DNA from: an uncultured Pelagibacteraceae bacterium
GTDB lineage: Bacteria > Pseudomonadota > Alphaproteobacteria > Pelagibacterales > Pelagibacteraceae
Length of the DNA: 52,308 nt
Assembly (NCBI GenBank): GCA_902561585.1
Contig: CACEQK010000006.1
Location: 1-52,308 of the forward strand
Direction: 5' to 3'
Positions 5,502 through 6,799 of the stretch are shown one piece after another; the first letter of the stretch is position 1; every line of letters starts with the position of its first letter. Position numbers and translations under genes: made by a program. A model generated the notes under the pieces. It was not told the DNA's origin, searched no databases, and was given only the letters and a program-made list of their open reading frames with translations.

Positions 5502-5530
5502 TTGACATTCATGTAATATTTATAGATTAT
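5502..5530 (+). promoter_or_regulatory. Candidate sigma70-type promoter for the gcv operon
   Basis: A perfect TTGACA at 5502-5507 is followed after 17 bp by GATTAT at 5525-5530 (4 of 6 matches to the -10 consensus), just ahead of the glycine riboswitch. A start site about 7 bp further on would put the RNA 5' end near 5537, exactly where the P1 helix of the first aptamer begins. If transcription starts further upstream, a leader strand able to pair with the linker is included. The -35 box is convincing; the -10 assignment is less certain. Confidence 0.45.
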
Positions 5531-5690
5531 GATGATATAACGGGAGAGACTATTTTAATATAGCGCCGAAGGAGCAACCACCCCGGAAACTCTCAGGTAA
5601 AAGGACCGTTATCATAATAACTCTGGAAAGCAGGCTTTAGCCTCACCGAAGGATTAAATCTCTCAGGTACAAAGACAGATGGGGTTAATA
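5526..5690 (+). promoter_or_regulatory. Tandem glycine riboswitch (two aptamers) controlling gcvTHP
   Basis: Two consecutive glycine aptamers are recognisable. Aptamer 1 has GGGAGAGAC near 5542-5550, GCGCCGAAGGAGCAA, and CTCTCAGGTAAAAGGACC; its P1 is ATAACGG (5537-5543) with CCGTTAT (5606-5612). Aptamer 2 has CTCTGGAAAGC from 5621, CACCGAAGGATTAA, and CTCTCAGGTACAAAGACAGA; its P1 is TCTG (5622-5625) with CAGA (5676-5679). Upstream ATTATG (5526-5531) can also pair with linker CATAAT (5613-5618), like the leader-linker helix of tandem glycine riboswitches. Glycine riboswitches ahead of gcvT normally activate expression when glycine is present. Linker bases 5613-5624 are also perfectly complementary to 5696-5707, which covers the ribosome-binding region and ATG of gcvT. 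No terminator hairpin is seen, so control is probably translational. Confidence 0.95.
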
Positions 5691-5704
5691 AAAAAAGAGT
5701 TATT

Positions 5705-6799
5705 ATGGAGATACAAAAAACAGCTTTATATAATTATCATAAAAACTTAGGAGCAAAATTTGTTCCGTTCGCTGGATATGAAATGCCAATTCAATATAAA
5801 GATGGCATTGTAAAAGAACATATTTCTACAAGAACTCATGCTGGATTTTTTGACGTCTCACACATGGGGCAATTTTTTCTAGAAGGCGATGAAACATTAA
5901 TCGAGTCACTTGAAAAAATTATACCAGCAGATCTAAAAAATTTAAAAATTAATCATTCGAAGTATTCCTTTTTACTCAATAACGAAGGTGGAATAATTGA
6001 TGATTTAATTATTACAAGAACAGAAAAAGGTTTTTGTATAATTTTAAATGCTGCTTGCAAGGAGAACGATATAAAACAAATTTCACAACTTTTAAAAAAT
6101 AATCATAAACATCTTTTAAATAACAATTTATCTTTGATAGCATTACAAGGCCCTAAATCTGTAGAGATTTTAGATAAATTAATACCTGGTGTTGCAAATT
6201 TAAAATTTATGACAGGAAATAATTTTAATTATGCGGGTGAAAAACTTTATGTAACCAGATCGGGATATACAGGTGAAGATGGTTTTGAAATCTCTATCTC
6301 TAACAAAAAAGTTGAAAAGTTAATCGATTACCTAATTTCTAATGAAGTCAAGCCAATTGGTTTAGGGGCTCGAGATACACTAAGATTAGAAGCTGGTCTA
6401 TGTTTATATGGTCATGATTTAAATGAAAAAATAAATCCGGTTGAGGCCAATTTAAAATGGGCTATAGCAAAAAAAAGAAAAGAAGTTGGCGGTTTTAATG
6501 GATGGGAAAAAATAAAAGACCTTTTAGCTAAAGGAAGTGAAAAAATTAGAGTTGGTATTAAGCCGGATGGAAAAGTAATTGCTAGAGAAAATACAAAAAT
6601 TTTTTCATTAGAAAATAATGAAATTGGATTCGTTACTAGTGGCACTTTTGGTCCGAGTGTAAACGCCCCAGTTGCAATGGGATACGTAAAATCAGAATTT
6701 TCTAAAATAGGTACATCTATTCAGCTTGAAGTAAGAGGAAAAAAATATGGGGGTAAAATTTCTGAACTTCCATTTTATAAAAAAAGTTATGTTAAATAA
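5705..6799 (+). CDS. gcvT: Aminomethyltransferase, T protein of the glycine cleavage system
   Basis: The 364-residue protein is full length for GcvT. It transfers the aminomethyl carbon from lipoylated H protein to tetrahydrofolate, releasing ammonia. Visible signatures: [11 protein letters not shown] (21-31), DVSHMGQF (50-57), [13 protein letters not shown] (about 184-196) and [20 protein letters not shown] (about 219-238), which form the folate site. The start at 5705 follows a glycine riboswitch; only a weak AGAG lies upstream, and that AGAG plus the ATG is complementary to the inter-aptamer linker. It is the first gene of gcvT-gcvH-gcvP; the L protein (lpd) is not in the window. Confidence 0.97.

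Follow-up and report, generated by a model that had tools for sequence, protein, structure and literature searches.

The riboswitch and its genes

The window, the whole stretch of 52,308 bases analysed here, belongs to a genome of 824,764 bases in 27 contigs whose named Pelagibacteraceae relatives, with up to 95% GcvT identity, point to membership of the SAR11 family. It carries a tandem glycine riboswitch upstream of, and co-directional with, the glycine metabolism gene gcvT, followed by gcvH and gcvP (Table 1); the scores of both aptamers exceed the RF00504 gathering cut-off of 32. The two strands CATAATAACTCT and AGAGTTATTATG, the first comprising the linker between the aptamers and the second the gcvT start region, form 12 Watson-Crick pairs, none of them broken, and this helix is present in the MFE fold of 5520-5730, where it directly adjoins aptamer-1 P1. 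That fold as a whole was not stabler than shuffled sequences (z -0.48; 60 of 200 shuffles equally stable). The perfect complement at the heart of the original prediction is confirmed by both sequence and fold, and it has no equal among the 55 ORF starts of the window that we compared (ATG, at least 100 aa): the longest complement of the region -12 to +6 within the 94 nt upstream reaches 12 at gcvT and 4-9 at the other 54. When the sequence upstream of gcvT was shuffled by mononucleotides, none of 20,000 shuffles reached 12 and two reached 11. A G-U pair, 5612/5708, could formally extend the helix; in the fold, however, 5612 closes the 3' end of aptamer-1 P1 and would first need to be released from it. 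The aptamer-2 P1 strands are present where they had been placed. The GGGG after aptamer 2 can form a P5-type pseudoknot with the CCCC of aptamer 1; its variants in other SAR11 genera match on both sides (GCTC/GAGC, GCCC/GGGC), the native run averaging 4.43 (98 loci) versus 3.85 when swapped between genera.

Table 1. Features of the gcvT locus in the window
Feature	Positions	Strand	Basis
-35-like hexamer TTGACA	5502-5507	+	consensus scan; TTGAC similarly placed in many g1 relatives, by eye
-10-like hexamer GATTAT	5525-5530	+	consensus scan; spacing 17; overlaps leader strand 5526-5531
Glycine riboswitch aptamer 1 (RF00504)	5531-5618	+	cmscan, 68 bits, E 4.3e-12; sole RF00504 match listed in that scan
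Aptamer 1 P1, 5' strand	5537-5543	+	pairs with 5606-5612, MFE fold
CCCC of aptamer 1	5581-5584	+	P5-type pseudoknot partner of 5681-5684; sequence
Aptamer 1 P1, 3' strand	5606-5612	+	last base immediately precedes masking helix, MFE fold
Glycine riboswitch aptamer 2 (RF00504)	5613-5688	+	profile search of genome, 43.9 bits, E 3.5e-8
Masking strand CATAATAACTCT, inter-aptamer linker and start of aptamer-2 P1	5613-5624	+	sequence, MFE fold, covariation
Aptamer 2 P1, 5' strand UCUG	5622-5625	+	UCU common to masking strand; sequence
Aptamer 2 P1, 3' strand CAGA	5676-5679	+	sequence
GGGG after aptamer 2	5681-5684	+	P5-type pseudoknot with 5581-5584; sequence
Masked strand AGAGTTATTATG, SD-like AGAG, spacer and gcvT ATG	5696-5707	+	sequence, MFE fold, covariation
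gcvT (glycine cleavage T protein), 364 aa	5705-6799	+	ORF; tblastn to relatives
gcvH, next ORF, 126 aa	6814-7194	+	ORF; name read from sequence
gcvP, third ORF, 955 aa	7195-10062	+	ORF; name read from sequence

Linker and start region vary together across SAR11

Of 397 SAR11-family genomes, 313 gave an RF00504 match and 84, among them 19 of the 140 nearly complete ones, gave none. Loci L001-L142 comprise 2 from the window's genome, 30 + 80 best-scoring listed matches and 30 more; the 110 taken by score are a biased sample of the 313 positive genomes. Adding the window brought the input to 143 sequences. tblastn found gcvT in 124 of them, and removal of L001 and L002, which are the window again, left 122 loci with 99 distinct linker and start pairs, covering 12 of 14 genera, which we denote by codes (g10 and g11 are missing). 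Among the 19 loci without gcvT, 16 were assigned, on visual inspection of the N-terminus, to glcB (malate synthase) and three (L031, L033, L063) are cut by contig ends. L120, which has no anchor, was left out of the anchored column test, the ensemble folding, the GcvT tree and the count of helix coverage.

Across these genera both strands vary in step (linker/start: AATAACTCT/AGAGTTATT, ATTAACTCT/AGAGTTAAT, ATAAACTCT/AGAGTTTAT and TATATAACTC/GAGTTATATA). The combination found in the window, CATAATAACTCT with AGAGTTATTATG, is that of most g3 loci; most g2 loci have TTGTAATAACTCT with AGGGTTATTACAA, including one G-U, and most g4 and g14 loci CATATTAACTCT with AGAGTTAATATG. Four of five g5 loci carry ATTATATAACTC and GAGTTATATAAT, g7 carries AAATAAACTCT and AGAGTTTATTT, g9 carries ATAAACTCT and AGAGTTTAT, and one of five g12 loci carries ATTAAAACTCT and AGAGTTTTAAT. 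The native longest Watson-Crick run is at least 9 in 91 of the 99 distinct pairs, runs in g12 being short (5-11). When unlike linkers are swapped across genera, the mean run drops to about 4-8; such swaps are not clean because genera share linker types, and 1814 of 7554 of them still give runs of at least 9. Two g4 loci (L051 and L058) combine the linker AAATATTAACTCT with the start strand AGAGTTAATATTT in a 13-bp helix that excludes the ATG, which sits downstream. In the gcvT leader of L120 (g12) the start strand AGATTTTGA has lost its in-register pairing with the linker, and this locus may be a natural case of a mask that has disappeared.

An anchored test on 13 columns and 48 distinct blocks, with the conserved [AG]GTT as anchor, a choice that favours the core columns, found standard pairs in 91.2% of cases in register versus 39.3-47.8% when one strand was slid by 1-3 columns. 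Whole-block shuffles (2000), which do not keep relatedness, gave a pairing of 0.816 ± 0.010 with a maximum of 0.848, and outside the five core columns the observed pairing was 0.867 versus 0.711 ± 0.016 (maximum 0.766 of 2000). Pairing is found in only 69% of blocks in column 11 and 50% in column 12, both at the outer edge. The number of columns with two-sided change is not informative by itself, being 7 in register and 4-7 when slid. Mapped onto a tree of GcvT N-termini with 120 rows, linker, start and pair state require a minimum of 1/1/1, 3/3/4, 4/4/6 and 4/4/6 changes at positions 6-9, so that at least 1, 2, 2 and 2 changes, respectively, strike both sides together; these two-sided changes are few events, mostly at the genus level, and some may share branches. 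The match is also visible by eye, wobbles allowed, in all 19 loci of named Pelagibacteraceae, some of which may be of the same species as other sampled genomes (the 20th, L165, is cut). The search for covariation among SAR11 genomes that the original prediction had called for has therefore yielded compensatory changes, with pairing kept across genera, and the locus shows one hallmark of a translational ON riboswitch, an anti-SD strand that is complementary to the start region and conserved by covariation.

The glcB loci offer an internal comparison. In the ten from g4 (L015, L042, L046, L078, L082, L089, L094, L098, L112 and L123), the linker of glcB pairs with the start of glcB, including its ATG, through 9 to 11 pairs. 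Mean duplex energies in this genus are -10.5 kcal/mol for matched glcB and -14.1 for matched gcvT versus -5.0 and -6.6 for the crossed combinations; the linker/start duplex of the single g10 glcB locus reaches -12.2 kcal/mol. One internal mismatch occurs in the glcB helix of all ten g4 loci. The five glcB loci of g1, the genus of the window (L050, L060, L080, L086 and L091), form weak linker/start duplexes (-2.4 to -6.2 kcal/mol), whereas a stretch of aptamer 2 pairs better with the start region (-6.8 to -10.5 kcal/mol). By eye, the 3'-side stretch GUACCAAU of aptamer 2 in L080 can pair with AUUGGUAC upstream of the ATG, and in the g1 glcB loci a stretch of this type could likewise pair with an AUUGGU that precedes the ATG. 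A different platform may therefore serve glcB in the genus of the window; this aptamer-2 pairing is a lead only, because the same stretch gives -4.4 to -10.1 kcal/mol at glcB in g4.

Forty of 60 non-Pelagibacteraceae loci, chosen by motif hits, were scanned and all 40 carried RF00504. With L199 left out, the remaining 39 gcvT riboswitches had a mean run of 4.15 versus 4.07 for swapped pairs and a maximum of 6, with approximate positions for the start codons and, in loci lacking CTCTGGA, for the linker; the design is accordingly rejected as a general proteobacterial feature. From other alphaproteobacterial families 24 of 29 loci were used (two had no gcvT hit, two no linker and one no start), and their mean run of 4.58 versus 4.07, with a maximum of 8, is inflated by taking the best of all candidate starts. 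No run longer than 8 was found in the 63 gcvT riboswitches sampled outside SAR11. Three of the 24 loci (L250, L256 and L267) have 7- or 8-nt complements between linker and gcvT start, for example GGCTCTCT/AGAGAGCC in L256, which may represent a shortened version of this design or coincidence. Within the loci sampled the long helix is confined to SAR11, and short anti-SD versions elsewhere are possible.

These comparisons also bear on the idea that the complement arose by chance in AT-rich sequence flanking a conserved ACTCT and a GAG-type SD. ACTCT does recur in the linkers of most non-SAR11 loci shown and can pair with any AGAGT, and the matches of 7-8 nt in other alphaproteobacterial families are of the kind that such an origin would produce. 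The SAR11 match, however, runs several bases past ACTCT, its two sides change in step, and it collapses when slid and weakens when crossed; contradicted by both the anchored column test and the glcB paralogues, an accidental origin is exceedingly improbable.

What the helix covers and how aptamer-2 P1 may compete for it

The helix reaches the first G of GAG in 96 of 98 distinct loci, whereas the whole ATG lies within it in 55, part of it in 12 and none in 31. Because the ATG is wholly outside in those 31 loci, the constant target is the SD-like GAG with the spacer, a correction to the proposed masking of the start codon. In the predicted unliganded ensemble, from a folding method that omits tertiary contacts, the pseudoknot and the ligand, the helix has a mean probability of 0.95, with values above 0.5 in all but one of 98 loci, leaving the four SD-like bases 6% unpaired and the ATG 17%. 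Combined with the start of another linker class, its mean probability is 0.49, with more than 0.5 in 161 of 294 swapped folds, an overlap that again reflects linker types common to several genera.

Competition between aptamer-2 P1 and the start region for the linker was another element of the original prediction, and the direct overlap is real but limited to 3 of the 12 pairs. Forcing P1, in 97 of the 98 loci, raised the unpaired fraction of the SD-like bases from 6% to 59% and that of the ATG from 17% to 29% (in the window, from 3% to 59% and from 1% to 18%), at a mean cost of 6.3 kcal/mol (window, 6.6), and the remainder of the masking helix retained a probability of 0.46. Even when the start region has yet to be transcribed, the prediction seldom contains P1 (mean probability 0.18, above 0.5 in 10 of 97 loci; 0.03 in the window). 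Since forced P1 leaves the ATG mostly paired in silico, P1 alone would clear the SD and not the whole start; the remaining opening would have to come from the pseudoknot, the dimerized aptamers and the two bound glycines.

The small overlap, the strong preference of the unliganded ensemble for the helix and the ATG left partly closed by P1 would suit a constant stem that glycine does not open and that serves to keep basal gcvT translation low or to shield the mRNA. An SD that is always covered would, on the other hand, render two conserved aptamers useless, the masking strand holds the ACTCT that it has in common with aptamer-2 P1, and glcB in g4 keeps its own version of the pairing, all of which make a constant stem rather unlikely, although it is the most serious of the rival explanations.

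The leader strand, the promoter and control at the RNA level

The original prediction gave the linker a further partner in the leader, 5526-5531. Its complement with 5613-5618 does exist (6 nt in the window, extendable to 8), but as a competing strand it is not conserved: leader/linker complementarity was no higher than in swapped pairs across 99 loci (mean 4.30 versus 4.26), an 8-nt run occurred only in the window's genome among them, and no excess indicative of a leader-linker helix of the P0/kink-turn type was found. The strand also overlaps the -10-like hexamer, and we rejected it as a conserved partner. The two hexamers of Table 1 would place the start of transcription near 5537, a position that can be put forward only tentatively because promoter-like sites are no commoner in the region than expected by chance (3 found versus 3.0 expected in the consensus scan).

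Leader-linker helices occur in other glycine riboswitches. This likeness, together with the extendable complement in the window, speaks for a three-way switch in which, in the bound state, the leader takes the linker in a P0/kink-turn type helix and frees the start, but the equality with swapped pairs and the overlap with the hexamer speak against it. Metatranscriptome reads of SAR11 glycine riboswitches, linked to gcvT, are reported to start at the first P1 base or up to 15 nt upstream (PMC5069720), which is a further difficulty for it, although with read starts that far upstream some transcripts could still contain the leader strand. The leader-linker helix is described as less conserved in glycine ON switches (PMC13104608). 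A three-way switch is, on balance, highly unlikely.

The scan of the leader found no terminator-like hairpin, the sole match (5855-5870) lying within gcvT. This agrees with the proposal of a switch operating without a terminator, and a transcriptional riboswitch was rejected since the scan shows no intrinsic terminator between aptamer and gene. The same anatomy would also serve if masking acted on the mRNA, untranslated gcvT being cut or Rho-terminated so that regulation would be seen in transcript amounts. Such effects can in general follow when translation is blocked, but with no terminator-like hairpin found in the leader we regard this variant as very unlikely.

A probable translational ON switch with the linker as expression platform

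Because the pairing is conserved with compensatory changes, an unliganded start that is masked and a translational ON switch represent the best reading of this locus. We put the probability at roughly 0.77 that the tandem glycine riboswitch is a translational ON switch whose expression platform is the inter-aptamer linker. Of the model as originally drawn, the masked start is backed by covariation, the leader strand has to be dropped, and the roles of P1 and of the ATG are narrower than supposed. What we infer is that the start is masked in the cell, that the switch responds to glycine in the ON direction and that the other nine pairs then open.

In the proposed mechanism, the glycine-free RNA would pair its linker and the opening bases of aptamer-2 P1 (5613-5624) with the SD-like AGAG, the spacer and the ATG (5696-5707). 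As this helix begins on the base that follows aptamer-1 P1, aptamer 1 could remain folded, perhaps stacked on the helix, and aptamer 2 would be unable to close its P1. Glycine binding would favour the aptamer-2 P1 (UCUG/CAGA), the P5-type pseudoknot GGGG/CCCC and the aptamer dimer, so that the UCU of the masking strand would be taken from the SD-like AGA and the remaining nine AU-rich pairs weakened. Ribosomes could then initiate gcvT and hence the gcvTHP genes. The ON direction is suggested by the role of gcvT, which degrades glycine, by the title of Tripp 2009, which reportedly calls the SAR11 switch glycine-activated, and by the gonococcal gcvT switch, a translational tandem ON switch.

A more detailed version, to which we would give about even odds, takes the SAR11 linker as the whole platform, its anti-SD strand running from beside aptamer-1 P1 to inside aptamer-2 P1. 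Aptamer 1 would be folded in both states and stacked on the masking helix, with aptamer 2 as the only moving part. Linkers and starts, at gcvT and in one genus at glcB, would have evolved as locked pairs, so that matching about a dozen bases would suffice to redirect the switch to a new gene.

The glycine riboswitches of SAR11 gcvT and glcB are already known (PMC2704228, PMC5069720), and the element in the window is the same as theirs (Tripp 2009, Meyer 2009). Candidatus Pelagibacter ubique is reported to have two, upstream of gcvT (SAR11_0666) and of glcB, in a paper whose accessible part does not mention the linker/start pairing (PMC2704228), and a later paper, citing Tripp, states that SAR11 glycine switches modulate mRNA translation (PMC2864753). 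In the accessible portions of the literature searched, which did not cover Tripp 2009, the likeliest place, we met no description of the linker as masking strand or of its covariation.

A close counterpart outside SAR11 is gcvT of Neisseria gonorrhoeae, reported in 2026 as a translational tandem glycine ON switch (PMC13104608). According to the sections available, both systems have tandem aptamers, translational ON control of gcvT and a possible P5 pseudoknot, a feature described as frequent in glycine ON switches; in both, unliganded aptamer-2 sequence pairs with the translation initiation region, and the reported absence of the 5'-end/post-aptamer-1 motif in N. gonorrhoeae can be listed as a further likeness (PMC13104608). 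The gonococcal masking strand, in contrast, comes from aptamer-2 P3a, P3 and P1, and its platform is described as poorly conserved among species (PMC13104608), whereas in SAR11 it consists of the linker and the P1 5' strand, mostly with 10-13 pairs and with compensatory changes family-wide. Bacillus subtilis and other transcriptional tandem glycine switches are reported to resemble the SAR11 element in their tandem aptamers, gcvT operon and ON direction, and to differ in control by transcription termination, given that no terminator-like hairpin was found in the leader of the window.

The model can be tested with a few mutants, and the glcB paralogue provides a control in related genomes. SAR11 bacteria are reported to be among the commonest ocean cells, to need external glycine or serine and, as is thought, to have few transcriptional regulators. 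If glycine does open the helix, our results would locate the expression platform of their long-known switches, show a very short leader working without a terminator, and reveal a tandem riboswitch that uses its own linker as its output.
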